Below the pieces are notes generated by a model. The model made no database searches and had not been told where the DNA came from. It saw nothing but the letters and a program-made list of their open reading frames with translations. A stretch of 51,840 bases of DNA. It comes from Planctomycetota bacterium. Lineage in GTDB: Bacteria; Planctomycetota; Phycisphaerae; Phycisphaerales; SM1A02. Position numbers and translations under genes: made by a program. Below, in pieces: positions 1-46,657 of the stretch. Positions within the stretch are counted from its first letter, which is position 1. Every line of letters starts with the position of its first letter. Where the stretch lies: assembly GCA_016873115.1 (NCBI GenBank), contig VGYB01000011.1, positions 1 to 51,840 on the forward strand, read 5' to 3'.

Positions 1-40
1 CGTCATGGGAAGGAAGAAGTCTATCGCCGGGATGGACGAG

Positions 41-283
41 CCCGCCGCAGCCAAGGGCCTTGCGGACGGCGTCGACGAGGAGTGTGTGCAAAAAAGGGCC
101 CGCCGCAGCCAAGGGCCTTGCGGACGGCGTCGACGAGGAGTGTGTGCAAAAAGGGGCCCGCCGCAGCCAAGGGCCTTGCGGACGGCGTCGACGAGGAGTG
201 TGTGCAAAAAGGGGCCCGCCGCAGCCAAGGGCCTTGCGGACGGCGTCGACGGGGAGTGTGTGCAAAAAAGGGCCCGCCGCAGC
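41..283. repeat. 58-bp tandem repeat, four full copies plus an 11-nt remnant
   Basis: Units begin at 41, 99, 157, 215 and 273, each starting CCCGCCGCAG, so the period is exactly 58 bp. Copies are almost identical: the poly-A stretch varies between five and six A and one copy has GGGG for GAGG. Copies abut with no spacer. Read on the minus strand (the direction of nrdJ transcription), each unit can form a GC-rich hairpin around CCGCA...TGCGG followed by GGGCCC and a run of five or six T, the layout of an intrinsic terminator. Because 58 is not a multiple of 3, open frames through the array change frame in every copy, which argues against a coding role. Confidence 0.93.
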
Positions 284-301
284 TGGTGGGTCTGCGGCGG
301 G
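264..301 (-). terminator. Intrinsic terminator downstream of nrdJ
   Basis: On the minus strand a perfect 10-bp stem (301-292 paired with 282-273, CCCGCCGCAG/CTGCGGCGGG) encloses a 9-nt loop and is followed by GGG-complement and six T (264-269). It is the first terminator met after nrdJ and shares its 3' stem arm and T tract with the 58-bp repeat unit, so the array looks like an expansion of this terminator's tail. Confidence 0.8.
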
Positions 302-572
302 CCGGGAGGAACAGGGCCCTGTGGCCCTGGGTTGTGGCAAGGGCGATGGGGGAGTGCCTCCGAGGACGGCCACACCTGCTCGGGTCGAACCCGCTCAGGG
401 GGTCAGACGCCACCGTTCCGTGCTTGTCTGACCAGTGCTCAGAGGATCCGTTCTTTGCCGACCGCTTGGTCTCCTTGGGGCAACTGCCCCCATCGCTGTC
501 TGCCGGGCGTCGTCGGAGCGAAGCGCCCAGCATGGTTGATGGTGGCCGGAACGACCGGCCACCGGTGTTCGG
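302..572. other. Non-coding spacer between nrdJ and the terminator
   Basis: No convincing gene is present. Structure seen: a perfect inverted repeat GGTCAGAC (401-408) / GTCTGACC (426-433) with a 17-nt loop, and a small CGGGT-CGA-ACCCG hairpin at 381-393. Frames open here on both strands look like GC-driven shadows. The stretch would be the 3' untranslated region of the nrdJ transcript. Confidence 0.5.
541..563 (-). terminator. Hairpin just after the nrdJ stop
   Basis: A perfect 9-bp stem, GGTGGCCGG (541-549) and CCGGCCACC (555-563), with a 5-nt loop lies 9 nt beyond the nrdJ stop codon. No T run follows on the minus strand, so it may stabilise the mRNA 3' end or act in a factor-dependent stop rather than as an intrinsic terminator. 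Confidence 0.5.
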
Positions 573-3500
573 TCAGCTGCAGCCCTGGCTGGCGCCGCAG
601 TTGAAGCATCGATAGCACGTGCCGTTGCGCACCGTGATGGCACCGCACACGCTGCACGGTGGGGCATCACCCATGGCGGACGCCGCCTGCGCGTCGAGTG
701 CGTTGGTCATCACCTTCGAGCTGAGTGAGTTCGTCACGCTCCCAGCGGGTGCGGCGGAGTTCTTGCATGAGGCGGAATCCCCATTGCAGCACTCCGACGA
801 GTCGGACACCCCACGGGTCCCGCTGATCCGATCGCCCAAGTTCAGTTCGCCCGAAGCGGTCTGACTTGGAGCAGCCTGGCTGGTGGAGCGGGAAACGTGC
901 GGTGCGGCACTGCGGTCGGTCCATGAGTCCTCCTTGACATGTTCCCGGGCGACGCTGGCGGCCGCGGCGGGTGCGTGTGATCCGGCTTCCATACCGGTGC
1001 GTTGCGGAGCGTTCAAATCACGATAGCCCTGGATGAACTCCATGCCCATCCAGCGGAAGATGTAGTCCACGAGGCTCTTCGCGATGGGGATGTCGCTGTT
1101 CTGCGTCATGCCCATGGGTTCGAAGCGCTGGTGGGCGAACTTGTTCACAAGGCTCTGCAGCGGCACGCCGTACTGCAGGGCGACGCTGATGGCGGTGCCG
1201 AGCGAGTCCATCAAGCCACCGATGGTCGAGCCCTCCTTGGCCATGGTGATGAAGAGCTCGCCGGGCATGCCGTCCTCGTAGCGGCCCACGACGAGGTACC
1301 CCTCGTGGCCGGCCACATTGAACTTGTGCGTGATGCTCTGGCGCGTGTCGCTGAGGCGACGGCGCGACGGACGCTCGATCACACGCTCGACGATGCGTTC
1401 GACCACGCGCTCGATCACCTGCGGTTGGCCGTCGGCTGCCGGAACCTTGGCTTCGTCGGGCAGGCCATCGAGGTCGGCCTCCTCGGCGTGGTCGGCAGCA
1501 TCGCTCTTCGTGGCCAGCGGCTGGCTCAGCTTGCAGCCATCACGGTAGAGGGCATTGGCCTTCAGGCCAAGTTCCCACGAGAGTCGGTAGGCCTTGCCGA
1601 TCTCCCCGACGCTCGCCTCGTTGGGGAGGTTGATGGTCTTGGAGATCGCGCCCGAGATGAAGGGCTGCGCCGCGGCCATCATGCGGATGTGCCCTTCGGC
1701 CGCGATGAAGCGCTTGCCGATGGTGCCGCACTTGTTGGCGCAGTCGAAGACCGGCAGGTGCGCATCCTTGAGGTGCGGTGCGTCCTCGACGGTGCCCGTA
1801 CCGCAGATGACGCGGTTGAGGGCATCGACCTGGCGACGGTTCAGACCCAGTGCACGCAGGCCGTTGAAGCCCATGTCGGCCTTGGCCCGCTCGGCGTCGA
1901 CGCCAGCCTTGCGCAGGACGCGCTCGGGCATGCTCCAGGCCGTGAAGGCGAAGCTGATCTCGAAGCACGACGGCAGGCCGTTCTCGAGGGTGATGAGTTC
2001 CTCGTTGGTGAAACCGGCCTCGATCAGGAACGAGCGGAACGAGGACTGGCTGGCCGAGATCGCACCGTGCTCATCGGCCATCGGCACATCGAGGCTCAGG
2101 GTGCCCATGACATAGGTGAGGATGTCGTCAGTCTGCGCATTCGTGTAGCCGAGCGAGCGCAGCGCCGGTCGCAACGACTGGTTCGCGATCTTGAAGTAGC
2201 CACCGCCGGCAAGCTTCTTGAACTTGGTGAGCGCGAAGTCCGGCTCGACGCCGGTGGTATCGCAGTCCATGAGCAGGCCGATGGTGCCCGTGGGGGCGAT
2301 CACCGTGACTTGGGCATTCCGGAAGCCGTGCTCCATGCCGAGTTCGAGCGCGTCGTCCCACGCCGAGGACGAGGCCGCGAGCATGGCTTCGGCGTTGGCC
2401 ACGGCGATGCGGCCGCTGCGGAAGAGCGCCTGGTCGATCGGCACCGGTGCGATGCGCAGTTCTTCGTAGGCACCCGAGTCGCGGGCAGCGCCGTATGCGG
2501 CGGCGCGGTGGTTGCGCATCACGCGAAGCATGTGCTCACGATTCTTCTCGTAGCCGGCGAAGGCGCCATGCTCGGCGGCCATGCGCGCGCTGGCGGCATA
2601 GGATCGTCCAGTCATGATCGAGGTGATCGCACCGCAGATCGCCCGACCTTCGTCGCTGTCGTAGGGAATGCCCGCCTGCATGAGCATGGCACCGAGGTTG
2701 GCATAGCCCAGGCCGAGCGTGCGGTATCTCCAGCTGAGCTCGGCGATCTCGCGGCTTGGGAAGCTCGCCATGAGCACACTGATCTCGAGGACCACGGTCC
2801 AGACATCGATCGCGTGCTCAAAGCCCAGGATGTCGAAGGTCCTCGACTCGGCGTCGTAGAACTTCATCAGGTTGACCGACGCGAGATTGCAAGCCGTGTT
2901 GTCGAGGAACATGTACTCGCTGCACGGGTTGCTGGCGTTGATGCGCCCGCCCTCAGGGCAGGTGTGCCATGCATTGATCGTGGTGTCGTACTGCAGGCCA
3001 GGGTCGGCGCAGCGCCACGCGGCGAAGCAGATCTGGTCCCACAGCGTCGACGCCTTCAGCGTCTTGGCGTCCTTGCCATCCATGCGGCGTGTGAGCGACC
3101 AGTCGGCATCGGCATCGACCGCATCGAAGAACGCATCCGACAGGCGGACGGAGTTGTTCGAGTTCTGGCCGCTGACGGTGTAGTAGGACTCTCCGTTGAA
3201 GTCGTAGTCGAGCTTCAGTCCCATGCCCTGGGCCAGGTCCTGCTGGTCCTGGGGCAGATGCTTCATGCCCTCCACGAGCGCGGCGACCTTGAGTTCCTCG
3301 CGAACCTTCCAGTTGACGAACGCCTCGATGTCCGGGTGATCGACATCGAGGCAGACCATCTTGGCCGCCCGGCGCGTGGTGCCGCCGGACTTGATCGCGC
3401 CCGCGGCGCGGTCACCGATCTTGAGGAAGCTCATCAGGCCCGAGCTGCGGCCGCCGCCCGAGAGCGGCTCGTTCTCGCCGCGGAGGCGGCTGAAGTTGGT

Positions 3501-4145
3501 GCCGGTGCCGGAGCCGTACTTGAACAGGCGTGCCTCGCGGACCCACAGGTCCATGATGCCACCTTCGTTGACGAGGTCGTCGCTGACCGACTGGATGAAG
3601 CACGCGTGCGGCTGCGGGTGCGTGTACGCATCCTTGGCCAGCGACAGCGCACCGCTGAGGTGATCGGCGACCCAGTGACCCTGCGCCGGGCTGTTGATGC
3701 CGTAGGCCCAGTTCAGGCCGGTGTTGAACCACTGTGGGCTGTTGGGCGCAGCCATCTGCGTAACCAGCATGAAGCAGAGCTCGTCGTAAAAGGCCTGTGC
3801 GTCCTCATCGGAGTCGAAGTATCCGTGCTCCTTGCCCCAGTGCGCCCAGCAGCCTGCGAGGCGGTGCACCACTTGACGCACGCTCTTCTCCGGGCCGAAG
3901 ACCGGCTCGCCGTCCCGGACGATCGGCACGCCGTCCTGGTCGAACTGCGGGACGCCCGCCTTGCGGAAGTACTTGCTGACCACGATGTCAGTGGCGAGCT
4001 GGCTCCACTCCTTCGGGATCTCCGCATCGTTCATCTCGAAGACGACCGAGCCGTCGGCATTGTGGATCTTGCTGGTACGCGTGGTCCATTCAATGGTGCT
4101 GAACACATCGCGCTTGCCGTCGGTGAATCGTCGATTGATCTTCAT
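573..4145 (-). CDS. nrdJ: Adenosylcobalamin-dependent class II ribonucleotide reductase
   Basis: Makes deoxyribonucleotides using a cobalamin-generated thiyl radical, independent of oxygen. The 1190-residue protein has the class II active site: N406-P-C408-S-E410 (catalytic Asn, radical Cys, Glu) and the redox pair C182 (HACFIQS) and C419 (NTACNLASVNL). PTGTIGLLMDCDTTG follows in the barrel. After the catalytic domain comes an ER/EV-repeat linker (VIERVVERIVERVIERP), a TSCPD-type domain (ITHKFNVAGHEGYLVVG...) and a C-terminal four-cysteine knuckle (CSVCGA...CYRCFNCG) that would re-reduce the active site. A purine-rich AGGTAGGAAG precedes the ATG. It lies 114 nt downstream of dcd on the same strand. 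No cobalamin riboswitch was recognised in that gap. Confidence 0.97.
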   Translation of the reverse strand: MKINRRFTDGKRDVFSTIEWTTRTSKIHNADGSVVFEMNDAEIPKEWSQLATDIVVSKYFRKAGVPQFDQDGVPIVRDGEPVFGPEKSVRQVVHRLAGCWAHWGKEHGYFDSDEDAQAFYDELCFMLVTQMAAPNSPQWFNTGLNWAYGINSPAQGHWVADHLSGALSLAKDAYTHPQPHACFIQSVSDDLVNEGGIMDLWVREARLFKYGSGTGTNFSRLRGENEPLSGGGRSSGLMSFLKIGDRAAGAIKSGGTTRRAAKMVCLDVDHPDIEAFVNWKVREELKVAALVEGMKHLPQDQQDLAQGMGLKLDYDFNGESYYTVSGQNSNNSVRLSDAFFDAVDADADWSLTRRMDGKDAKTLKASTLWDQICFAAWRCADPGLQYDTTINAWHTCPEGGRINASNPCSEYMFLDNTACNLASVNLMKFYDAESRTFDILGFEHAIDVWTVVLEISVLMASFPSREIAELSWRYRTLGLGYANLGAMLMQAGIPYDSDEGRAICGAITSIMTGRSYAASARMAAEHGAFAGYEKNREHMLRVMRNHRAAAYGAARDSGAYEELRIAPVPIDQALFRSGRIAVANAEAMLAASSSAWDDALELGMEHGFRNAQVTVIAPTGTIGLLMDCDTTGVEPDFALTKFKKLAGGGYFKIANQSLRPALRSLGYTNAQTDDILTYVMGTLSLDVPMADEHGAISASQSSFRSFLIEAGFTNEELITLENGLPSCFEISFAFTAWSMPERVLRKAGVDAERAKADMGFNGLRALGLNRRQVDALNRVICGTGTVEDAPHLKDAHLPVFDCANKCGTIGKRFIAAEGHIRMMAAAQPFISGAISKTINLPNEASVGEIGKAYRLSWELGLKANALYRDGCKLSQPLATKSDAADHAEEADLDGLPDEAKVPAADGQPQVIERVVERIVERVIERPSRRRLSDTRQSITHKFNVAGHEGYLVVGRYEDGMPGELFITMAKEGSTIGGLMDSLGTAISVALQYGVPLQSLVNKFAHQRFEPMGMTQNSDIPIAKSLVDYIFRWMGMEFIQGYRDLNAPQRTGMEAGSHAPAAAASVAREHVKEDSWTDRSAAPHVSRSTSQAAPSQTASGELNLGDRISGTRGVSDSSECCNGDSASCKNSAAPAGSVTNSLSSKVMTNALDAQAASAMGDAPPCSVCGAITVRNGTCYRCFNCGASQGCS

Positions 4146-4226
4146 GGCTTCCTACCTTGCGTCCGTGCGTTGCTGGAACTGTGCAATCCGTGCCTTGGTG
4201 CTGATTCGCGAGGCGTGTTGTCCCGG

Positions 4227-4243
4227 GGTCGGCGAGGCCGACC
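4227..4243 (-). other. Hairpin between dcd and nrdJ
   Basis: Perfect 7-bp stem GGTCGGC/GCCGACC with a 3-nt loop, extended by three further C-G pairs across a 2x2 internal loop. No T run follows on the minus strand. It could attenuate or process a dcd-nrdJ transcript. Confidence 0.4.
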
Positions 4244-4259
4244 GGGGGGTACTGGGTTC

Positions 4260-4850
4260 TCAATGGCCGTGGAACGGGAGTCCGTCGACCCTGGGCAGCG
4301 TGAGGCCACCCTGGTCCTGATACTTGCCGCCCTTGTCGGCATACGACACCGCGCAGACCCGGTCTGCCTTGAGGAAGATCATCTGTGCGATGCCCTCGTT
4401 GGCATAGATCTTCGCGGGAAGGGGAGTGGTGTTGGAGATCTCGATGGTGACCTTGCCGCGCCATTCGGGCTCCAGCGGGGTCACATTGACGATGATGCCG
4501 CAGCGGGCATAGGTGCTCTTGCCAACGCAGATGGCCAGGACATCGCGGGGGACATCAAACACCTCGACCGTCTCCGCCAGCGCGAACGAATTGGGCGGGA
4601 TCAGGATGTGATCCTTGCCGGTCTGTGCGGTGTCGATCGTGATGAAGAGATCGTTGGTGAAGTTCTTGGGATCGACGATCGCAACGCCGCCAGAGGTGGC
4701 GTTGGTGAAGACCTTGAACTTGGTGCCGACGCGAACGTCGTAGCCGTAGCTGGATACGCCGTAGGAGACGGTGCCGGGGCGCTTGACGTTCTCGGCGAAC
4801 GGCTCGATGGGAACGCATTCCCGGATCTGGGTGTCACAGAGCACTGCCAT
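4260..4850 (-). CDS. dcd: dCTP deaminase
   Basis: Deaminates dCTP to dUTP, feeding thymidylate synthesis. The 196-residue protein begins MAVLCDTQI and carries the family core [14 protein letters not shown], the nucleotide-binding [21 protein letters not shown] and the catalytic-Glu segment [13 protein letters not shown]. The frame is open about 70 codons further upstream, but homology begins at this ATG (codon at 4850-4848), so the upstream part was excluded. An AGGAGG lies about 13 nt before the ATG, a long spacing. Its position ahead of nrdJ groups two dNTP-supply genes. Confidence 0.93.
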
Positions 4851-5361
4851 GGGTCTTCTCTGTTCCTCCTGCACCACCCGACCATGGGTGGCGGCCGATG
4901 GCATGGCATCGACGCCCATGACTGGAAACACCCAGCCCGTGCAGCCGGCTCCGGCGAGGGAGGCGGCTGGTCTCCATCGTGCGCGCGACCACTGCAGGTC
5001 AGTTCGCCCACGATCCACCAGTCCATCGACGCTTGGTTGGATGCCGGGTTTCCACAACGGTCGGCACCAAGCGCGGACGGTCGGATGCAGCGCGAATGCA
5101 TGGTCCTAGAACAAACAATCGTCGCGGCAACCTTGCCAGCGAGGCGAACCACCACCTCACCGGCAGGAGCGCACAATAGCCCTACATGTTGTGGTTGCAA
5201 GAGTCTGGATCACAAAATGTCGCGGTTTTGGGTCCCGTTTCCTAAGTCAAGAACATGTCGAGACTTGCTGACTTGAGGTGGTTCAGTTCGCCGGCGGCCA
5301 GAGTCGCCGAGCGATGGACCACATTCCGGGAGAGCGCTGCGGGCCCTCCTAAACTCGCTCC
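4851..5361. other. 511-bp divergent intergenic region
   Basis: Separates dcd (minus) from the UvrD-like helicase (plus). No gene is supported. Seen: a 6-bp hairpin CCACCC/GGGTGG (4874-4891) just ahead of the dcd ribosome-binding site, an A/T-richer segment from about 5105 to 5260, a 6-bp inverted pair AAGTCA/TGACTT around 5246-5276, and the helicase promoter at 5350. No known RNA family was recognised. Confidence 0.5.
5350..5355 (+). promoter_or_regulatory. -10 box TAAACT, leaderless start of the helicase
   Basis: TAAACT ends six bases before the ATG at 5362, so transcription would begin at or next to the start codon. No purine-rich ribosome-binding site fits between. Confidence 0.5.
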
Positions 5362-7632
5362 ATGGTCACGGAAGGCCCATGGCTTGATGGTCTCACCGAG
5401 GCGCAGCGCGCTGCGGTCGTGCACCCAGCCACCCCGCTCTTGGTCCTTGCAGGACCAGGCTCCGGAAAGACCCGCGTGATCACGCGACGCATTGCGCACC
5501 TCGTGGCCCAGGGTGCAGCGCCATGGTCGATCCTCGCGCTGACCTTCACGAACAAGGCTTCGGGTGAAATGAAGGAGCGTGTGCAGGCGATGCTCGAGGC
5601 AGAGGTCGCGAGCGTGCGTGGCCTGCAGGTCAGCACCTTCCATTCCTTCTGTGCGATGCTGCTCCGTCGTTACGGATCGAGCCCTGCGGCAGCAGCCAGC
5701 GATGGTACGCCGCTTGCGCCGGGGTTCTCGATCTTCGATGCCGATGATGCGCGCGACGCCGCCAAGCGGGCCATTGCGACAGCAGGCTTGGACAGCAAGA
5801 ACTGGCCGGCCGCGATCGTGCTGTCACGCATCAGTGATGCGAAGAACAAGCTGCTCGATGCGGCGGCCTACGCGGCCGAGGCGGGCGACTTCACAAGTCG
5901 TTCGCTGGCCAAGATCTACCGCGCCTATGAAGCCGAGCTCGCCAAGTGCAACGCAGTCGATTTCGACGATCTTCTCCTTCGGGTTGCGCGGCTCGTGCGG
6001 CAGGACACTTCGGTGCGCGAGGAACTCCAGCAGCGCTATCGGCATGTGCTCATCGACGAGTACCAGGACACCAACCATGCGCAGTTCGTGATTGCCGGCG
6101 CGATTGCCCAGGCGCACGGCAGCCTCACGGTGGTGGGCGACCCCGACCAGTCGATCTATGCGTGGCGCGGCGCGGACATCACGAACATCCTGGACTTCGA
6201 GCAGCATTTCCCCGGCGCGGCCGTGATCCCGCTGGGACAGAACTTCCGCTCGACGGGCCACATCGTGGCCGTGGCGGATGGGCTCATCCGCCACAACGCG
6301 CGCCGCAAGCACAAGGACCTCACGACCGAACTCGAGCCGGGGGCGTTGCCGCAGGTCATCCGCGCGCTCGACGAGCGGCACGAGGCGCGTGTGATCGTCG
6401 ACGAGATGGTGCGTCAGCACGAAGCGGGCGTGCCATGGAAGGGCATGGCGGCGCTCTACCGCATGAATGCGCTCAGTCGCGTGATCGAGGATGAGCTGCG
6501 TCGGCGCTCGATTCCCTATGTCGTCGTGCGGGGTACCGCGTTCTACGAGCGCCGCGAGATCAAGGATGCGCTCGCGTACCTGCGCACGCTGGCCAACCCG
6601 AGCGACGAGGTCGCCCTGCGACGCATCATCAATGTCCCCGGGCGCGGGATCGGTGCCGCCACCATCGCCCGTGCCGACGCGCTCGCTGCCGCGCATGGCC
6701 TTGGCTTCGAGGCGGCGCTCGCCGCCACGGATGGACTCACTGCGCGTGCACGCAAGGCGATCGACGGTTTCCTCGCCAGCCTGGCGCAGTGGCGAGCGGA
6801 CCTCATGCAAGGCGCGCCGCACGAGGTCGATGATGAGGACCTGCCGCAGATGCTCGGAGGGATGCTGGGCGGATATGTCGCGCGCGTGCTGACCGAGAGC
6901 GGCTTCGAGGCCGCCGCAGGCGAGGGCAGTGCCGATGCCGAGGAAGCGGCGGAACGCCGGGCAAATGTGGCTGAACTCGTGACGGCCGCGTCGGAGTTCC
7001 GCCTGCCGCCGCAGGAACCGGGTGCCCCACGGCCCCAACTCGTCGATGTCCTGCGTGCGTTCCTCGAGCGCGTGGCGCTCGTCACCGACTCCGATGCGTT
7101 CGATCCAGAGGCCGGTGCCGTGACGCTCATGTCCCTGCACGCAGCCAAGGGTCTTGAGTTCCCGTTCGTCGCGGTCCTTGCCTGCGAGGAGGGGATCCTT
7201 CCCCACAGCCGGGTGCAAGCCGACCCGGCCCAGCTCGAGGAGGAACGGCGGCTGCTCTTCGTGGGCATCACGCGCGCCGAGCGCCAGCTCATGCTCTCGA
7301 GCGCTGCCATGCGCACGCTGCGCGGGATCCGCGAGGCCCAGATGGAGAGCCAGTTCATCGAGGAGCTGCCGGGGGATCGATTGGCCAGACGAGACCTTGC
7401 CGGTGGCCCGCGCGGAGCGAGCACCGATCCCGATGCGCCAGCGTGGGAGCCCGACGCCGATGAACGCCAGGGCTGGAAGGCCGGCATGCGCGTGCGTCAC
7501 CGCCAGTTCGGCATGGGCCAGATCGAGTCCGTCCTGCGTCAGGGCAGCGTGACCACGCTGCGGGTGGCCTTCCGCACCGTGGGCGTGAAGAGCCTCGTCG
7601 CGGAGTACGCGCGGCTCGAGATCGTGAACTGA
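5362..7632 (+). CDS. pcrA: UvrD/PcrA-type superfamily 1 DNA helicase
   Basis: 3'-5' DNA helicase for repair and clearing of replication and transcription blocks. All motifs are present in order in 756 residues: Walker A GPGSGKT (31-37), Ia TFTNKASGEM, II DEYQDTNHAQF, III VGDPDQSIYAWRGAD, IV GQNFRSTG, V TLMSLHAAKGLEFP, VI RLLFVGITRAERQL. The C terminus (MRVRHRQFGMGQIESV...) matches the Tudor-like PcrA tail that contacts RNA polymerase, which favours PcrA over UvrD or Rep; the two names cannot be separated firmly here. It converges with the peptidase gene 15 bp downstream. Confidence 0.95.
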   Translation: MVTEGPWLDGLTEAQRAAVVHPATPLLVLAGPGSGKTRVITRRIAHLVAQGAAPWSILALTFTNKASGEMKERVQAMLEAEVASVRGLQVSTFHSFCAMLLRRYGSSPAAAASDGTPLAPGFSIFDADDARDAAKRAIATAGLDSKNWPAAIVLSRISDAKNKLLDAAAYAAEAGDFTSRSLAKIYRAYEAELAKCNAVDFDDLLLRVARLVRQDTSVREELQQRYRHVLIDEYQDTNHAQFVIAGAIAQAHGSLTVVGDPDQSIYAWRGADITNILDFEQHFPGAAVIPLGQNFRSTGHIVAVADGLIRHNARRKHKDLTTELEPGALPQVIRALDERHEARVIVDEMVRQHEAGVPWKGMAALYRMNALSRVIEDELRRRSIPYVVVRGTAFYERREIKDALAYLRTLANPSDEVALRRIINVPGRGIGAATIARADALAAAHGLGFEAALAATDGLTARARKAIDGFLASLAQWRADLMQGAPHEVDDEDLPQMLGGMLGGYVARVLTESGFEAAAGEGSADAEEAAERRANVAELVTAASEFRLPPQEPGAPRPQLVDVLRAFLERVALVTDSDAFDPEAGAVTLMSLHAAKGLEFPFVAVLACEEGILPHSRVQADPAQLEEERRLLFVGITRAERQLMLSSAAMRTLRGIREAQMESQFIEELPGDRLARRDLAGGPRGASTDPDAPAWEPDADERQGWKAGMRVRHRQFGMGQIESVLRQGSVTTLRVAFRTVGVKSLVAEYARLEIVN

Positions 7633-7647
7633 TCCCCCGGGCAGCGC

Positions 7648-9735
7648 TCAGCGGCAGCAGCCGGTCTGCGACATGATGAACGACCAGCGATCGACCGCGT
7701 CTCGCACACGCAGCGACAGCGGCTTGCCCTGGCCGTGACCGCCGTCGCGATCGACCCACAGCAGGATCGGATCGGTGTCATGGTCGTTGGCGGCCATGGC
7801 CTGCAGGCGCGCGGCCATCTTGCGTGCGTGCAGGGGATGCACGCGCGTGTCGTTCTCGCCGGCAGTGATGAGCATGGCCGGATAGCGCTGGCCCTTCTTG
7901 ATGTTGTGATACGGGCTGTACGCGCGCAGCCAGCGGAACTGCTCCGCCTCCTCGCTGCTGCCGTACTCGGGAACCCAGAAGCGCGCCATCAGGAACTGCT
8001 GGTAGCGCAGCATGTCGAGCAGGGGAACCTGGCAGACCACGCAGGACCACAGGTCCGGGCGTTGCGTGATCGCCACGCCCGTGAGGAGCCCGCCGTTGGA
8101 GCCACCCATGACCGCAAGGCGATCGGCCTTCGTGTAGCCGTTCGCGGCGAGCCAGCCAGCGACCGCGTACAGGTCGTCGAACACATTCTGCTTGCGCCCA
8201 AGCATGCCCGCCTGGTGCCATGATTCGCCATACTCGCCGCCACCGCGGAGGTTGGCCAGCGCGTACACGCCGCCGGCCTCGAACCACGGCCAGTTGGTCG
8301 CGTTGAATCCGGGTTCGAGGCTGACATTGAACCCGCCGTAGCCGTAGAGGAGGCACGGGTTCGAGCCGTCGAGCTTCAGTCCCTTGCGGTGGACGATGAA
8401 GACCGGGACCTTCGTGCCGTCCTTGCTGGGCACGAAGCGCTGGCTCACCTCGACCATCGAGGGATCGACCGGCACCTCGGGGCGCGCCCAGAGCGCGAGC
8501 TGCGCCGAGGCACCCGTGAGTTGCGTGCGATAGATGGAGCGCGGTTCGTTGAAGCTCTCGTAGGTCACGAAGGCCTCGTCGCGGTCCTCCTCGGTTGCGA
8601 TGCCCGCATTGCCCAGGCCGGGCAGCGCGATCTCGCCCGCGCTCGACCCCGAGCGCCGGAAGAGCTCCATGCGCGTGATGACATCCTTCTTCCACGAGGC
8701 CACGAGCCACGATGCCGTCGGCGAGACGCCGTCGAGCACCGCGTCCCTGCGCTCGGCAATCACGGTGCGCCAACGCTCCTGCGCAGGTTCGGTGAGGTCG
8801 ATCGCCAGCAGCCGCCCGTTGGGGCTCTGGAAGGTGGTCGAGGCGTACAGCGTGGTGCCCTCGATCGCGACTGGGTCGAAGCGGCCGTCGAGGCCGACGG
8901 CGATCGGCACGAAGCGCACCTGTCCCGTGCGGCGCCACGCATCGACGCTTGCCACGAACAGGTCGTTGCGCTGCCAGCCCTCGCTGATGCCCAGCGTGAT
9001 CCACTTGCCGTCACGGCTGAGTCCAGCACCAGGAACCCGCGAGGGTTCCTTCTGCACGAAGAGCACGGGATCGTTGCGCTCGTGCATGCCCAGCAGGTGC
9101 CACTTCACGGTGCGCGAATAGGGATCCTTCGGATCCGAGAGGCGCGAGTAGAGGAACTGCCGGCCATCTGGCGCCCAGCCGCCGAAGTCCGCCTTGCCAG
9201 GGATCGTGTCGGCCAGCCACGACCCGCCCGAGGTCGCGAGCACATGGAGCTGGCTCATCTCATCGCCCGCGCGTGAGAGACCGAACGCCACGAACTGGCC
9301 ATCGGGGCTCGGTACGTACCAGTCCAGGCTCGTGAGTCCCTTCTCGTCGATCGCGTTCACATCCAGCAGCGTGCGGGGCGCGCCGTCGAAGCCTTCGCGC
9401 ACCTTGAGCACAGGCTGGTTCTGCGTGCCGGACCGCTCTGAATAGAAGTAGAGGTTCCCGCGCATCGACGGAGCCGAGATGCCGCCGATCTGCATGAGCG
9501 GCGTGAGCGCCTTCTCGAGCGAGGCCCGGCAGGGCAGGGCATCGAGCACGCGGCGGGTGTGATCGTTCTGCAGCGTGGTCCATGCGGCGACCTCGGTGCT
9601 GTCGGCTTCCAGGGCCTCGAGCCAACGGTACTCATCGGTGAACGACTCACCGTGGATCGTGTCGGTGACCGGTCGCGCCTCGGTCGGTGGCGGTGTGACG
9701 GCGGTCGACAGGACGAGGACGGTGTGGAGCAGCAT
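7648..9735 (-). CDS. Prolyl oligopeptidase, S9A family, exported
   Basis: Serine peptidase that cuts after proline in short peptides. In 695 residues, an N-terminal beta-propeller precedes an alpha/beta-hydrolase domain with nucleophile Ser about 546 (GGSNGGLL), Asp about 629 (ENDTRVHPLHARK) and His about 667 (DGGHGQG). The hydrophobic N terminus MLLHTVLVLSTAV suggests export. The minus-strand -10 TACATT (9747-9742) ends six bases before the ATG with no ribosome-binding site, a leaderless arrangement. Confidence 0.93.
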   Translation of the reverse strand: MLLHTVLVLSTAVTPPPTEARPVTDTIHGESFTDEYRWLEALEADSTEVAAWTTLQNDHTRRVLDALPCRASLEKALTPLMQIGGISAPSMRGNLYFYSERSGTQNQPVLKVREGFDGAPRTLLDVNAIDEKGLTSLDWYVPSPDGQFVAFGLSRAGDEMSQLHVLATSGGSWLADTIPGKADFGGWAPDGRQFLYSRLSDPKDPYSRTVKWHLLGMHERNDPVLFVQKEPSRVPGAGLSRDGKWITLGISEGWQRNDLFVASVDAWRRTGQVRFVPIAVGLDGRFDPVAIEGTTLYASTTFQSPNGRLLAIDLTEPAQERWRTVIAERRDAVLDGVSPTASWLVASWKKDVITRMELFRRSGSSAGEIALPGLGNAGIATEEDRDEAFVTYESFNEPRSIYRTQLTGASAQLALWARPEVPVDPSMVEVSQRFVPSKDGTKVPVFIVHRKGLKLDGSNPCLLYGYGGFNVSLEPGFNATNWPWFEAGGVYALANLRGGGEYGESWHQAGMLGRKQNVFDDLYAVAGWLAANGYTKADRLAVMGGSNGGLLTGVAITQRPDLWSCVVCQVPLLDMLRYQQFLMARFWVPEYGSSEEAEQFRWLRAYSPYHNIKKGQRYPAMLITAGENDTRVHPLHARKMAARLQAMAANDHDTDPILLWVDRDGGHGQGKPLSLRVRDAVDRWSFIMSQTGCCR

Positions 9736-9760
9736 GGCGGGAATGTAGGCCGCGCGCGCC

Positions 9761-9783
9761 GCCCCCGCGGGCCGGATGGGGGC
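9761..9783 (-). terminator. GC-rich hairpin after serA
   Basis: GCCCCC (9761-9766) pairs with GGGGGC (9778-9783) around an 11-nt loop, in the 75-bp gap beyond the serA stop. There is no T run. It is only suggestive, because the same gap holds the peptidase promoter. Confidence 0.3.
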
Positions 9784-9810
9784 GTGATGCCGCCAACCGG
9801 ATCGGGATCC

Positions 9811-11016
9811 TCAGGCCCTCGTCAGCCGCATGCGCACCGTCTCGGGCAGCGCGGTGAGTGCGTGCACGATGCCATCGCCCTCGAACGGGTCGACATCGAG
9901 GATGACATAGCTCGTGTGCAGATCCGATTGCAGATACTCGGCGTTGATGTTGACCGACTCGCGTGCGAAGTGGCCGTGCATGGTGCTCAGGACGCCGGGC
10001 ACGTTGCGGTGCACATGCATGATCCGGACCTGACCGGCCCGCAGCGTTGGCAGGTCAACCTCGGGGAAGTTCACGGCGCTTGCCGTCGAGCCACTGGTCC
10101 AGTGGCGTACGAGCTTCTCCGCGACCTCGATGGCGATCGACTCCTGGGCCTCTTCGGTGCTGCCACCGATGTGCGGCGTCAGGATCACATTGCCGAGGCC
10201 CCGGAGCGCACTCTCGAAGGGCTCCTCACGGCTGGCAGGTTCCTGCGGGAAGACATCGAGTGCGGCACCGGACAGATGCCCCGAGCGCAACGCCGCGGCG
10301 AGCGCCTCGGTGTCGACCACGCTGCCGCGCGCGTTGTTGATGAGCGCCGAACCGGGCTTCATGCGTGCCAACTGAGCCCGGCCGATCATGTGCTCGGTCA
10401 ATGGCGTGCTTGGCACATGAAGCGTGACGATGTCCGACTCCGCGAGCAGTGCATCGAGCGAGCCGCGTGGTTGGGCATTGCCCAGTGGCAGCTTGCGCAC
10501 GATGTCATGGAAGACCACGCGCATGCCCATCGACTCGGCGAGCACGCTGACCTGGCTGCCGATGTGCCCGTAACCGATGATCCCGAGCGTGCGGCCGCGG
10601 ACCTCGTGCGCATCCTTCGCGCTCTTGTCCCAGGTGCCCGCGTGCAGCAGCATGCTCTTCTCGAAGAGTCGGCGCGCCAGGCAGACCGCCTCGGCCACGG
10701 TCATCTCGGCCACGCTGCGCGTGTTGCTGAAGGGACTGTTGAAGACCGGGATCCCTGCACGGCTCGCGGGAACAAGATCGACCTGGTCGGTCCCGATGCA
10801 GAAGCAGCCGATCGCGGCTGGTCGACCCGCAGCCAGCGCTGCCTCGCGGATCGAGGTCTTGGAGCGGATGCCGAGCACCGTGGCGCGCGCGAGTGCGGCG
10901 CGCAGTGCATCACCCCCGAGCGCTCCGGTGTGACGCTCGATGGCGAAGCCTGCCTCACGAAGGATCAGGTCGGCGGTGGCGTGCACATTCTCGCAAAGGA
11001 CCGCGATCGGTTGCAT
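9811..11016 (-). CDS. serA: D-3-phosphoglycerate dehydrogenase
   Basis: First step of serine synthesis: 3-phosphoglycerate to 3-phosphohydroxypyruvate with NAD. The 401-residue sequence closely follows the short ACT-domain type of E. coli: NTRSVAEMTVAEAV, the Rossmann segment LGIIGYGHIGSQVSVLAES, SLHVP-like TLHVPSTPLTEHMIG, AALDVFPQEPA, TPHIGGSTEEAQ with the catalytic His, and a C-terminal ACT domain (about 325-401; HVHRNVPGVL...). One base separates its ATG from the map stop (TGACATG), so it is translationally coupled as the last gene of hutI-map-serA. Confidence 0.95.
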   Translation of the reverse strand: MQPIAVLCENVHATADLILREAGFAIERHTGALGGDALRAALARATVLGIRSKTSIREAALAAGRPAAIGCFCIGTDQVDLVPASRAGIPVFNSPFSNTRSVAEMTVAEAVCLARRLFEKSMLLHAGTWDKSAKDAHEVRGRTLGIIGYGHIGSQVSVLAESMGMRVVFHDIVRKLPLGNAQPRGSLDALLAESDIVTLHVPSTPLTEHMIGRAQLARMKPGSALINNARGSVVDTEALAAALRSGHLSGAALDVFPQEPASREEPFESALRGLGNVILTPHIGGSTEEAQESIAIEVAEKLVRHWTSGSTASAVNFPEVDLPTLRAGQVRIMHVHRNVPGVLSTMHGHFARESVNINAEYLQSDLHTSYVILDVDPFEGDGIVHALTALPETVRMRLTRA

Positions 11017-11017
11017 G

Positions 11018-11827
11018 TCAGGTTCCCACGATGTCTGGAAGATCGAAGAGTCCGGCAGTCAGGTTGACTGGGCCGCCGGCGGTGATGAGCACATCGGCCT
11101 CGTAGTGCACGCTCAGTGAGCCATCGGCGGTGTAGATCGGCCAAGCCGATCCGTCCGAGCGGGTCTCGGTGGTGCCCACCGCGATCATCGGCTCAACCGC
11201 GACCAGCATGCCCGGGCGCCAGAGCGACCACGCCTCGCTCCACTCGCCCGGGTAGGTCGGCACCGTGTTGGCCACATAGGGTGCCGCGTGCAGCGAACGG
11301 CCATAGCCGTGGCCGCCAAGGCCGCGCACCAGACAGAACCCGCAGCGCTTCTCGGCGTGCTGCTGCACGGCCTTGGCCCAGTCGACCAATGGACGGCCCG
11401 GCTGCATGGCTTCGATGCCGAGCCGCAGGCTCTCGCGCCCGGCCGCCATGAGTTCCGCAGCGAGCTTGTCGCAGCTACGGATCGCGTAGGTCCATGCTGC
11501 GTCGCCGATCCAGCCCTGGTGCTTCACGCCGATGTCGATGCTGATGAGGTCGCCCTCGGCGAGCGGCCGGTCGCTCATGTCGTGCGTGCCATGGACGACG
11601 CAGTCGTTCACGCTCAGGCATGAGTGGCTTGGAAAGTGGGGATGCCCGCGCACCTTGTAGCCCTTGAAGCACGAGGTGCACTGAAGGTCCTTGAGCTGCT
11701 GCGCGACGAACGCGTCGATCGCTGCGAGCGTGAGTCCCGGGCGAAGTTCATCGACGAGCCGGCGATGGATGGTCACGACGCACGCCGCCGCCGCAGCGGC
11801 GGCATCCTGGTCACGGGGGTCGATCAT
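11018..11827 (-). CDS. map: Methionine aminopeptidase, type I
   Basis: Removes the initiator Met from nascent proteins. The five metal ligands are visible in 269 residues: Asp/Asp in SIDIGVKHQGWIGDAAW, His in GGHGYGRSLH, Glu in VAVEPMIAVG and Glu in VHYEADVLIT; the substrate His lies in DCVVHGTH. A short N-terminal stretch has CTSCFKG, but there is no SH3-binding zinc-finger extension. Its ATG overlaps the hutI stop as ATGA. Confidence 0.94.
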   Translation of the reverse strand: MIDPRDQDAAAAAAACVVTIHRRLVDELRPGLTLAAIDAFVAQQLKDLQCTSCFKGYKVRGHPHFPSHSCLSVNDCVVHGTHDMSDRPLAEGDLISIDIGVKHQGWIGDAAWTYAIRSCDKLAAELMAAGRESLRLGIEAMQPGRPLVDWAKAVQQHAEKRCGFCLVRGLGGHGYGRSLHAAPYVANTVPTYPGEWSEAWSLWRPGMLVAVEPMIAVGTTETRSDGSAWPIYTADGSLSVHYEADVLITAGGPVNLTAGLFDLPDIVGT

Positions 11828-13071
11828 GGCGTTGCTCCAAGCCCGGGTTCATCCGGGTTCACGGCGCGACCGGCATGGAACACCAGGCCGGGTGGACCCG
11901 AGGGCAGGCCGTGGACAAGTGCATCCTCGTTGGTGTCGTGCAGCAGCATGAGGTCGGCGCGTTGGCCGGGCTCGATCGAGCCGACCTGCCCGGCCACGCC
12001 GAGCAGGTGCGCTGCATTGGTGATCGCGGCCCGTAGGACTTCCGCGCTCGTGAGTCCCATGAATCGCGCGGCGAGCTGCATGGCGAAGGGGAGCCCCAGG
12101 CCCGGTGCGCTGCCGGGGTTGGCGTTGCTCGCGATCACCAGCGTGCCCCCCTCGTCGAGCAGCCTCCGTGCATCCATGAAGCGCATGTCGAGCGCGAAGC
12201 CAGTAGCCGGCAGTGCCACGGCGAACGCACCGCTGTGTGCCACGGTCACCAGGTCGTCGTCGCTCGATGCTTCAAGGTGGTCCACGCTGCGCACCCCCAT
12301 CCCGATCAGGTCGGCGAGCAGGCCGGATCGCGTGAACTGGTCCACATGCGCCCGCACGGGGCAGCCCAGGGCGAGCGAAGCCGAGACGAAGCGCATGGCA
12401 TCGTCACCCGTCCATGCACCCTGTTCGATGTAGAGGTCCATCGTCGTGCCCGGCCGCGCTGCGGCGATCGCCGGCAGCGTCTCGCGGATCGTGCGCTCGA
12501 TGAAGTCCGGGCACGCCGGATCGATGGCGTGACCGGCGAGGCAGGTGGCGACAGTCTGGATCCGGGCGGCACAGGCGGTCGCCGCATCATCGATCGCATC
12601 GAGCATGCGCAGCTCAGTCTCGGTGGACAGGCCGTAGCCGCTCTTGACTTCGCAGGTCCCGGTCCCCAGGCGAGCCATGCGCTGCAGCCGCAGCGCCGTG
12701 GCCCCGGCAAGGTCCTCGCGGTTCGAGCCGCGCACCGATCGCACCGAACTCATGATGCCACCGCCTGCATGGAGGATCGACAGGTACGGCTCACCTGCCC
12801 GCTTGCGCGCCCACTCGCTCCAGCGGTCGCCGGTCCAGCAGGCGTGCGTGTGGGCATCGATCAGGGCCGGCATGAGCACACGCCCACGGGCATCGATCCG
12901 GATCGAGGCATCAGGCGGCTTGCCTGAGCCGATGGAGCGCACGATGCCATCATCACCCACGAGCACCCACCCCCGATCGATGGCGCCGAGCTCGCGCATC
13001 GCGGCGCCGCGAGCCGGTTCACGGCCGACAGGCATCGACAGGACGCGTGCATCGTGGATCAGGAGCGGCAC
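11824..13071 (-). CDS. hutI: Probable imidazolonepropionase
   Basis: Amidohydrolase-superfamily enzyme of histidine breakdown (4-imidazolone-5-propanoate to N-formimino-L-glutamate). Signatures in 415 residues: metal HxH in DAHTHACWTGDR, the imidazolonepropionase-specific EVKSGYGL, HVDQFTRSG and SVDHLEA. The start is GTG at 13071: the -10 TAGGCT (13083-13078) ends six bases before it and no ribosome-binding site precedes it. No hutH, hutU or formimidoylglutamate hydrolase gene is nearby. Alternative: another amidohydrolase of the same subfamily. Confidence 0.85.
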   Translation of the reverse strand: MPLLIHDARVLSMPVGREPARGAAMRELGAIDRGWVLVGDDGIVRSIGSGKPPDASIRIDARGRVLMPALIDAHTHACWTGDRWSEWARKRAGEPYLSILHAGGGIMSSVRSVRGSNREDLAGATALRLQRMARLGTGTCEVKSGYGLSTETELRMLDAIDDAATACAARIQTVATCLAGHAIDPACPDFIERTIRETLPAIAAARPGTTMDLYIEQGAWTGDDAMRFVSASLALGCPVRAHVDQFTRSGLLADLIGMGVRSVDHLEASSDDDLVTVAHSGAFAVALPATGFALDMRFMDARRLLDEGGTLVIASNANPGSAPGLGLPFAMQLAARFMGLTSAEVLRAAITNAAHLLGVAGQVGSIEPGQRADLMLLHDTNEDALVHGLPSGPPGLVFHAGRAVNPDEPGLGATP

Positions 13072-13129
13072 GGTCGGAGCCTACCCGAGTGCGCAGCGGT
13101 GTCGGCGCTTCGGCTAGAGTCCGCCGTCG

Positions 13130-13504
13130 ATGACACCACAGAGCAAGAAGACCGCGCTCCTCGAGATCGACTTCGACGGCAGCATCATGATCGTGAAGCC
13201 CGCCGGCCCCAATGTGGGCCAGCGCGAAGCACCGATCATGAAGGCCGACATCGACCCGATGGTCAAATCCGCCGGCAAGGCCATGAAGGTCATGGTGATG
13301 GATCTCTCGAGCGTGCAGTTCATGAGCAGCATGGGCCTGGGCATGATCATCGACATGCGCAACTCAGCGGCCCAATCGGGCGCCACGGCGGTGCTCTTTG
13401 GCGTCAACAAGGAACTCAAGGCGCTCCTGGCCATGATGAAGATCGAGAAGCTCTACAAGATCGCCGACACCGCAGCGCAGCTGCAGGCGCTCTGCGGCCG
13501 ATGA
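13130..13504 (+). CDS. STAS-domain protein (anti-sigma-factor antagonist type)
   Basis: A 124-residue single STAS domain, the fold of SpoIIAA-like proteins that bind an anti-sigma kinase or act in stress signalling. The phosphorylation loop reads VQFMSSMGLGMI; Ser67 aligns with the phosphorylated Ser58 of Bacillus SpoIIAA, while the preceding Asp is replaced by Ser66. No partner kinase, phosphatase or sigma factor lies nearby, so the target is unknown. The -10 TAGAGT (13115-13120) ends nine bases before the ATG. Confidence 0.85.
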   Translation: MTPQSKKTALLEIDFDGSIMIVKPAGPNVGQREAPIMKADIDPMVKSAGKAMKVMVMDLSSVQFMSSMGLGMIIDMRNSAAQSGATAVLFGVNKELKALLAMMKIEKLYKIADTAAQLQALCGR

Positions 13505-13507
13505 CCG

Positions 13508-14440
13508 TCAGTCCAGGCTGAGGCCGTCGCCGACGCGCACCACGAGGTCGCCTCGTCCTCGATCGCCCGACGCCAGCCCGTCGCCCGTCTCCTGGGTGAT
13601 CGCCACCACGAAGACGCTCGTCCCGGGCCGGCGCGCCAGAATCTCGAGCGCCGTGCCGCCGAGGAAGTCACTGTGGAAGCAGCCCACCAGCACGACCGCG
13701 CGCGGACTCGACTCAAGCGCGCGCGCGACACTGGCACCCATCGTCGCGTCCCACACGAGTTGGCTGCGCAGCATGCGGTCAACCTGGTCGTCGGGCACGG
13801 ATGCGTTGGAGCCGCGCATCTCCTGCATGAGCTCGGCCAGACGGTGCCGGTACGCGCCCACGTCAGGCGCGATGGGCAGGTCGAAGAGCGCACGCTCGTC
13901 CGGAGGCAGCGCGAGCAGGCCTTCGTAGCCCTCGCGGTTGGCGCGCGAGACATACTGGCGCGGTGCGTTGGCGGCCACGATCGCGGCGCCGTGCGTACGC
14001 GCCAGGTCCAGACACGGCTGGTAGAACGCCATCCAGCTGTTGGGCTGCCCGGACCAGGTCCTGCTGCCGGTCCGGTCGATCAACTGGTCGGTCGTGATCT
14101 CGCCGCGCACCCACGCGTCGACGATCGGCTGCTCATGCCGCTCGAGCATCTCCAGGCAGAGCGCCGTGCGCGGCTCGCGCTCGAGCAGGCGTGCATAGAG
14201 CGCCTGCTGCAGCGCGTGCGCATCGGGGTTGTCGTGGTACTCGCCCAGCAGCACCACATCCGCGCGGGCGGCGCGCCGGGCGGCCTCGTCAAGGTCGATC
14301 CGGTCGCCCGTCGTGCCGTCGCGGATGACGAGGGCCTGAGCCGTGGCATCGCGCTCGATCGGGCTGAGCACGCGCGCGGTGCGTGGGGCGGTGCAGGCCG
14401 AGAGAGCGAGCACCATGGCGGCAACGGCGAGGAGGCGCAT
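13508..14440 (-). CDS. ChaN-like lipoprotein (heme-binding uptake fold)
   Basis: 310 residues with a lipoprotein signal: MRLLAVAAMVLALSAC, lipobox Cys16. The body matches the ChaN/Tiki-type domain: VVLLGEYHDNPDAHALQ near residue 60, LCLEMLERHEQPIVDAW, and a C-terminal VVLVGCFHSDFLGG. Family members bind heme or act as putative metalloproteases; which applies here is not decided by sequence. It converges with the STAS gene 3 bp away and is divergent from the DinG-like helicase. The -10 TAGCGT (14452-14447) ends six bases before the ATG. Confidence 0.82.
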   Translation of the reverse strand: MRLLAVAAMVLALSACTAPRTARVLSPIERDATAQALVIRDGTTGDRIDLDEAARRAARADVVLLGEYHDNPDAHALQQALYARLLEREPRTALCLEMLERHEQPIVDAWVRGEITTDQLIDRTGSRTWSGQPNSWMAFYQPCLDLARTHGAAIVAANAPRQYVSRANREGYEGLLALPPDERALFDLPIAPDVGAYRHRLAELMQEMRGSNASVPDDQVDRMLRSQLVWDATMGASVARALESSPRAVVLVGCFHSDFLGGTALEILARRPGTSVFVVAITQETGDGLASGDRGRGDLVVRVGDGLSLD

Positions 14441-14510
14441 GGTCCTACGCTAGTCTCGTGGACTGCATGGAGGCAACCAACGGGAGACCGGCCGCACAGG
14501 AGCGCCCGCG

Positions 14511-46573: not shown

Positions 46574-46657
46574 TGCGGTTGAGAGGACTTGAACCTCCAC
46601 GGGTTTTACCCCACTAGAACCTGAATCTAGCGCGTCTGCCAATTTCGCCACAACCGC
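46574..46657 (-). tRNA. tRNA-Leu (anticodon CAG)
   Basis: Minus strand. Seven-bp acceptor stem GCGGTTG/CAACCGC, anticodon stem CTAGA/TCTAG around loop TTCAGGT giving CAG (reads CUG), a long variable arm as expected for leucine, and T loop TTCAAGT. Discriminator A at 46574; CCA is not encoded. A TATGCT -10 lies at 46676-46671. Confidence 0.95.

Follow-up and report, generated by a model that had tools for sequence, protein, structure and literature searches.

A 58-bp tandem array at the 3' end of a candidate structured RNA downstream of nrdJ in a planctomycete genus

The window (the whole 51.8-kb stretch of DNA analysed here) carries on its minus strand, behind a gene that we take to be nrdJ following the sequence-only reading, a conserved stretch that ends in a terminator and a 58-bp tandem array. 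We consider it likely that this is a slippage array at the 3' end of an unannotated, nrdJ-linked, conserved structured RNA with a CCCACC-loop terminator. What we observed is the repeats and how they vary among species, an RNA-like sequence that is conserved, shows covariation and is linked to nrdJ, and the fixed terminator loop. The features are given below in the order in which they are read on the minus strand.

573-4145, minus strand: nrdJ, B12-dependent ribonucleotide reductase, 1190 aa (open reading frame list; C-terminus shared by relatives)
264-572, minus strand: candidate structured RNA, from the nrdJ stop to the end of the terminator T tract (identity, covariation, negative Rfam search)
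541-563, minus strand: hairpin GGTGGCCGG/CCGGCCACC just past the nrdJ stop (genus alignment; paired change to GGTGACCGG/CCGGTCACC in some species)
500-530, minus strand: hairpin with the loop motif CUCCGA at 518-513 (motif recurrence)
343-496, minus strand: domain closed by helix P1, in which 496-487 (GCGATGGGGG) pairs with 352-343 (CCCCCATCGC)
400-463, minus strand: conserved core (model R1), including helix P3 (433-426 with 408-401)
312-329, minus strand: hairpin CAGGGCC/GGCCCTG ahead of the terminator (strand fold and alignment)
264-309, minus strand: terminator, with CCTCC at 309-305, stem 303-292 with 282-271, CCCACC at 290-285 in the loop and T6 at 269-264
40-283, minus strand: 58-bp tandem array, units 283-226, 225-168, 167-110 and 109-52 plus a last arm, 51-40
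269-264, 210-206, 152-148 and 95-90, minus strand: T tracts of the array, T6 (the terminator's own), T5, T5 and T6
18-23, minus strand: TAGACT, -10-like element of the next gene (by eye)
4-6, minus strand: start codon (ATG) of the next gene, membrane-protein-like and continued on contig C29

The array and its leading terminator

Tandem Repeats Finder placed the strongest tandem repeat of the window at 40-283 (period 58, 4.2 copies, 98% matches, score 467), and its other four rows scored 53-66. This confirms the array of 58-bp copies described from the sequence alone and its minus strand, shared with nrdJ. Its place behind nrdJ also stood, but the direct succession from gene to terminators did not, as ∼270 nt of conserved RNA-like sequence intervene. 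Every unit opens with the 3' arm of the terminator, GCTGCGGCGGGC, and closes with GCAAGGCCCTTG. Only this arm and the T tract recur in the units; the 5' arm and the loop are absent from the repeats, and the fifth and last arm (51-40) is without a T tract. This arrangement supports the earlier proposal that the terminator was amplified, as far as its 3' half is concerned.

On the minus strand the terminator reads 5' arm GGCCCGCCGCAG, loop ACCCACCAG, CTGCGGCGGGCC, C and T6. The stretch 303-264 folded at -28.7 kcal/mol (z -5.88 vs. shuffles) and shows what is expected of an intrinsic terminator, a stable G+C-rich hairpin with a T tract directly after it; the hairpin and T6 noted earlier were thereby borne out, and the stem has 12 pairs instead of the 10 bp first given. 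The four 58-base stretches of the array, at -17.5 to -21.2 kcal/mol (z -0.98, -0.14, -0.43, and -1.48), folded no better than dinucleotide shuffles. Judged as intrinsic terminators, by a hairpin above chance followed by a T tract, the units therefore fell short (z -1.48 to -0.14, with the last-arm stretch also lacking the T tract), and the description of each copy as a clear hairpin with T5-6 could not be upheld. The entire 330-nt array strand, terminator included, gave z -2.22 (2 of 100 shuffles as good), somewhat better than shuffles, so that the repeats may have some weak structure. A strict hairpin scan called the leading terminator as the only one in the 51.8-kb window and none in 8.8 kb of contig C29 (L003), and strict intrinsic terminators seem to be rare in this genome. 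A consensus scan passed over the leading terminator, whose loop of 9 exceeds the limit of 8 in that scan.

The pattern CCTCC-N8..24-CCCACC-N8..24-TTTT occurred at 70 distinct sites in 61 genomes (the focal genome, G000, and 60 relatives). Twenty-nine of the sites lie within 1 kb downstream of nrdJ and on its strand, one each in 29 of the 58 genomes for which the end of nrdJ could be placed; seven belong to the focal genus and six to other families of the order. All 29 form stems of 10-14 pairs, whereas only 4 of the 41 other sites form stems of at least 8; the loop pattern was picked after such sequences had been seen, so that the count describes more than it predicts, while the contrast with the other sites stands. 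Behind nrdJ the CCCACC loop and the preceding CCTCC are constant and the stem varies. By eye, no consistent pairing partner for CCCACC was seen elsewhere in the RNA. We rejected the idea that a CCCACC loop is general to terminators, the pattern being found at a single site in G000.

A 22-base core of the unit had seven matches in G000, all of them on the window's contig (C11) or on the overlapping end of C29, i.e., at one locus. Units scattered at unrelated sites, which would have spoken against the sequence-only reading, were thus not encountered, and a dispersed repeat (REP/BIME-like, with many copies at unrelated sites) was rejected on the same ground. Elsewhere in the nine genus genomes there were two stray single sites at 2 mismatches to the unit core, and the homology beyond the genus was short and weak.

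The candidate RNA between nrdJ and the terminator

In G000 and six congeners, 307-309 nt separate the nrdJ stop from the start of the T tract. Across this stretch the mean pairwise identity was 96.5% (range 94.8-98.4, 21 pairs, gap columns excluded), compared to 92.1% for the last 900 nt of nrdJ, 86.3% for the first 300 nt of the next gene (250 in G008), and 68.1% behind the terminator. In 31 of 36 representatives the CUCCGA motif precedes the core by no more than 115 nt, with differing flanking sequences. In the search against Rfam 15 no family reached its cut-off at the locus (seven sub-threshold matches, E 0.24-3.5), and 14 further nrdJ loci gave nothing at E 0.5 except a tRNA. The covariance models of 6S RNA (RF00013) and of the cobalamin riboswitch (RF00174) did not match the locus, and both were rejected as its identity. 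Elsewhere in G000 we noted a weak 6S RNA candidate at G000:C6:40042-40226 (L061; 29 bits, below the family cut-off) and a cobalamin riboswitch above cut-off at G000:C15:28671-28895 (L062; 60.3 bits); a tRNA gene lies at 46574-46657 of the window (minus strand, 53.4 bits).

Covariation was assessed in alignment A3 (21 sequences, not fitted to the structure, L040 left out) with four helices (26 pairs) drawn from G000. Of the cells of these helices in A3, 80.3% were paired, falling to 35-49% when the partners were slid, a comparison in which single-sequence structure favours the unslid version. Changes on both sides affected 16 of the 26 pairs vs. 11.0 +/- 1.7 in shuffles (2 of 500 as high) and 42 cells vs. 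19.2 +/- 3.5 (0 of 500), with the caveat that relatedness alone can exceed shuffles. Further pair types (34 vs. 32.4; 143 of 500 shuffles) were the one among five covariation measures that did not stand out. Helix P3 is best supported, with both-side changes at 7 of 8 pairs, followed by P1 (5 of 10); P2 and P4 are weakly supported. The counts for P1 are low because its 5' strand is misplaced in the A3 rows of G082, G066, G080, G079, G067, and G035. Paired changes that keep the helices, the mark of a conserved structured RNA, were found, including 5 of 7 pairs in the core helix. Variants of the closing stem were seen at similar places (GCGATGGGAGCGA/TCGCTCCCATCGC, TCGCAGTGGTT/GACCACTGCGA, and TTCGCAGCGGTCC/GGATCGCTGCGAA). 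This stem is nearly palindromic, and when it was searched for freely, only 12 of 43 representatives scored above all of their 20 shuffles, some via another stem. A candidate pseudoknot between the CUCCGA loop and GGYYGG in the core was looked at by eye only.

For the survey of relatives, the 66-nt core model R1 was built from 16 sequences (alignment A1, from which additional copies of the genus were omitted, as were L036, L023, L040, and L041, which are weak or divergent). A DNA search of 181 family genomes gave a match in 17, three of them outside the genus and clearly behind nrdJ; R1 matched the core in 120 of the 181, representing 34 of 45 genera. In a class-wide sample of 397 genomes, 40 matched R1 at E 0.01; 13 of these are outside the family and weak, and the best non-family match (G054, 2.4e-4) is located just behind the nrdJ of that genome by coordinates. 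Two further weak R1 matches in G000 itself (C31 and C65) were taken as noise. The core was downstream of nrdJ, on the same contig and strand, in 111 of the 113 family hits with a place for nrdJ; the other two start less than 200 bases from the contig start, and seven genomes had no listed nrdJ place. Among 80 loci searched (several being one genome twice), 71 had a core hit, and in 67 of these the nrdJ C-terminus was found 84-503 nt upstream. An nrdJ-like match was present in 177 of the 181 family genomes; in eleven it reached no better than about 1e-28 to 1e-38, and a paralogue may account for it there. Sixty-one family genomes, including all 13 of g18, had no core match; since nearly all have an nrdJ match, these partly reflect real divergence. 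One g18 genome (G025) carries the terminator despite having no core match. The exact pattern CACTGGTCRRRCRAGCACGGA was found in 14 stretches among a genome collection of 84,980 species (11 with Planctomycetota titles, two uncultured bacterium, and one Bacteroidia). By eye, a stretch of about GGATGACC...CACCTGGGGAAGC recurs before the terminator behind nrdJ in L025, L026, L027, L029, and L040, and is perhaps a second RNA domain in other genera.

Our searches of open-access papers brought up no nrdJ-linked RNA of Planctomycetota. A table line that names a Rhodopirellula motif in the survey PMC2864571 makes no mention of nrdJ, and a passage of PMC1242208 places Yfr6 between trnS and nrdJ in one Prochlorococcus strain and elsewhere in another.

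History of the array and alternative explanations

The genus sample comprised nine genomes: G000, six congeners with a readable flank, G004, which is cut off inside the array, and G001, in which the contig ends before the site. Copy number in relatives, suggested earlier as a check, was compared: the unit was found in all eight genus genomes other than G001 at the same place, with a length of 57-59 bp (58 bp in six genomes, 59 in G003, and 57 in G005). G000 has four copies, G008 two, G004 at least two, G002, G006, and G007 one each, and G003 and G005 about 1.9. The array shows what is expected of a minisatellite or VNTR, tandem units whose copy number varies among relatives, here from 1 to 4. 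Within species the unit spacers are identical (G004 and G005) or 1 base of 26 apart (G000 and G003); between species they differ and are mostly species-specific. The sequence-only reading took the near identity of copies for recent expansion or ongoing homogenisation, and this pattern of spacers supports that view. G008, however, has two spacer types, one like that of G007 and the other like those of G006 and G002 (likeness by eye), so that the common ancestor of these species probably already had two or more units in tandem. Some lineages would then probably have retained one spacer type while others re-amplified one. In some congeners the unit's GCAAGGCCCT is also found in the hairpin that directly precedes the terminator; this suggests a derivation of the unit from the 3' end of the RNA, with the middle deleted.

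Other repeats were seen nearby. In G003 (L010) an insertion of several hundred bases, about 480-626 nt past the core start, separates the second unit arm from the TAGACT of the next gene and holds another tandem repeat (period 40, 3.7 copies). Unrelated tandem repeats are located near the RNA in other genera, behind it in L103 (18 bp x 6.7) and L106 (15 bp x 4.3) and before it in L105 (10 bp x 7.1), and the surroundings of the RNA may be prone to slippage more widely.

How far the array could be a product of assembly has to be weighed, as this is a metagenome-assembled genome. The window starts at a contig end (G000:C11), and the last ∼200 bases of a second contig, C29, share 98.5% identity with window 1-198; this contig breaks off within the array and shows T7 tracts there as well as a short tail that does not match. 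Copy number thus depends on the assembly, and two contigs of the bin ending at the array with different T tracts, together with the G004 contig that likewise ends within it, are what an artefact might look like. Two relatives have a row made up of nrdJ, the RNA, and two genes that resemble a membrane-protein gene and a mutase/MeaB gene (names presumed from the translations), and the same genes are found at the C11 and C29 ends; we concluded that the two are neighbouring contigs. Yet C11 spans four units between nrdJ and the far flank, and other species, assembled independently, carry units as well, with the flanks bridged in G002, G003, G005, G006, and G007. That the array is largely an artefact is highly improbable. 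The same can be said with slightly more force of a small protein encoded by the conserved stretch in place of an RNA. A 170-aa frame (21-533, minus strand) crosses part of it, but in this G+C-rich DNA several open frames overlap, the 58-bp repeats included, the core length varies over 62-67 nt in 16 aligned sequences by differences that are not multiples of three, and paired changes follow the helices.

Two further explanations give the repeats a task. The units could have been selected as extra intrinsic terminators that insulate the next-gene promoter from read-through, the fail-safe stop of the sequence-only reading. Three units do have a hairpin-capable arm followed by T5-T6, the second copy in G005 (GGCCCGC-GCTGCG-GCGGGCC-CTTTT) makes a 7-bp hairpin by eye, and arm and unit length are constant through the genus. 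We downgraded this explanation to unlikely because the units fold no better than shuffles; the strict hairpin scan called the leading terminator alone, the last arm is without a T tract in G000, G002, and G004, and a single unit suffices in three species. Otherwise the next gene might be regulated in cis, by a riboswitch-like leader made up of the RNA and terminator in which the array arms offer the 5' arm a choice of partners. The 5' arm GGCCCGCCGCAG is able to pair with any of the five 3' arms, and the next genes in the genus include a presumed B12-dependent mutase/MeaB-like gene. Against this, nrdJ is the gene with which the association is retained, and G138 has a convergent ORF next; together these make a next-gene riboswitch very unlikely; moreover, the RNA occurs without the array, and the cobalamin riboswitch of G000 is located elsewhere. 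As for the next-gene promoter, TAGACT follows the last unit arm at 17 nt in G002, G004, G006, G007, and G008 and at 16 nt in G000; a search for sigma-70-like promoters found no site in window 1-15000, which leaves TAGACT unsupported. Its end is 11 nt from the next-gene ATG (also in G006), which would give a nearly leaderless mRNA.

Proposed origin and relation to known systems

For the slippage array that we favour, transcription, a 3'-UTR origin, slippage and, above all, an RNA function are what we infer from the DNA. The stretch 572-264 (minus strand) would either belong to the nrdJ transcript, as its 3' end, or be a gene of its own immediately after nrdJ, and it would end at the intrinsic terminator with the conserved CCCACC loop. 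The 58-bp array would have arisen by tandem duplication of the DNA at this terminator and behind it. With the 3' arm of the terminator as 12-bp direct repeats, replication slippage or unequal recombination could gain or lose whole units, which would be homogenised within species. The units themselves probably do little and would serve at most as weak extra stops ahead of the next gene, although selection on the units could explain why their length (57-59 bp) and the arm sequence are constant across species. The RNA is most likely an nrdJ-linked 3'-UTR RNA that might protect its own mRNA, or act in trans via its C-rich CCUCC and CCCACC segments.

A further-reaching possibility, put forward tentatively, is a new class of ornate bacterial RNA of about 300-450 nt (CUCCGA-loop hairpin, long closing helix, 66-nt core, and a terminator whose CCCACC loop several families of the order share), which in this planctomycete order would form the tail of nrdJ. 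Such an RNA would act together with the B12-dependent ribonucleotide reductase, either regulating in trans or as an RNA-protein partner; the terminator loop would be functional, and the 3' boundary would be a slippage hotspot in one genus. A structured nrdJ-tail RNA in 34 of 45 genera of the family, with a conserved terminator loop, would make it possible to test directly whether regulatory RNAs find stable homes in the 3' ends of metabolic genes in Planctomycetota. The array offers a natural 1-to-4-unit series on how repeats originate at terminators and on whether extra terminator-like units matter.

The CcsR/cuckoo sRNAs of Alphaproteobacteria carry a CCUCCUCCC motif, and the candidate RNA resembles them in a C-rich CCUCC(C) segment near the 3' hairpin. 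The match to CcsR1 is below threshold (17.1 bits vs. a cut-off of 65.3, E 0.24), the phylum is another one, and the folded domain upstream is far larger here. Comparative-genomics surveys have described orphan RNA motifs, structured noncoding RNAs fixed to one neighbouring gene, and covarying helices, a conserved unpaired core, and a constant gene association are found here as well; the candidate RNA differs in being downstream of its linked gene and before that gene's terminator, with no Rfam match. The leading terminator has the 12-bp G+C-rich hairpin and T6 of intrinsic (Rho-independent) terminators, but behind nrdJ its CCCACC loop and the CCTCC before it stay the same from genus to genus and in several families of the order, while the stem varies. 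Like bacterial minisatellites/VNTRs, the array consists of head-to-tail units with a copy number that varies by species and near-identity within species; unlike them, its unit carries half a terminator and keeps a constant length of 57-59 bp through the genus.
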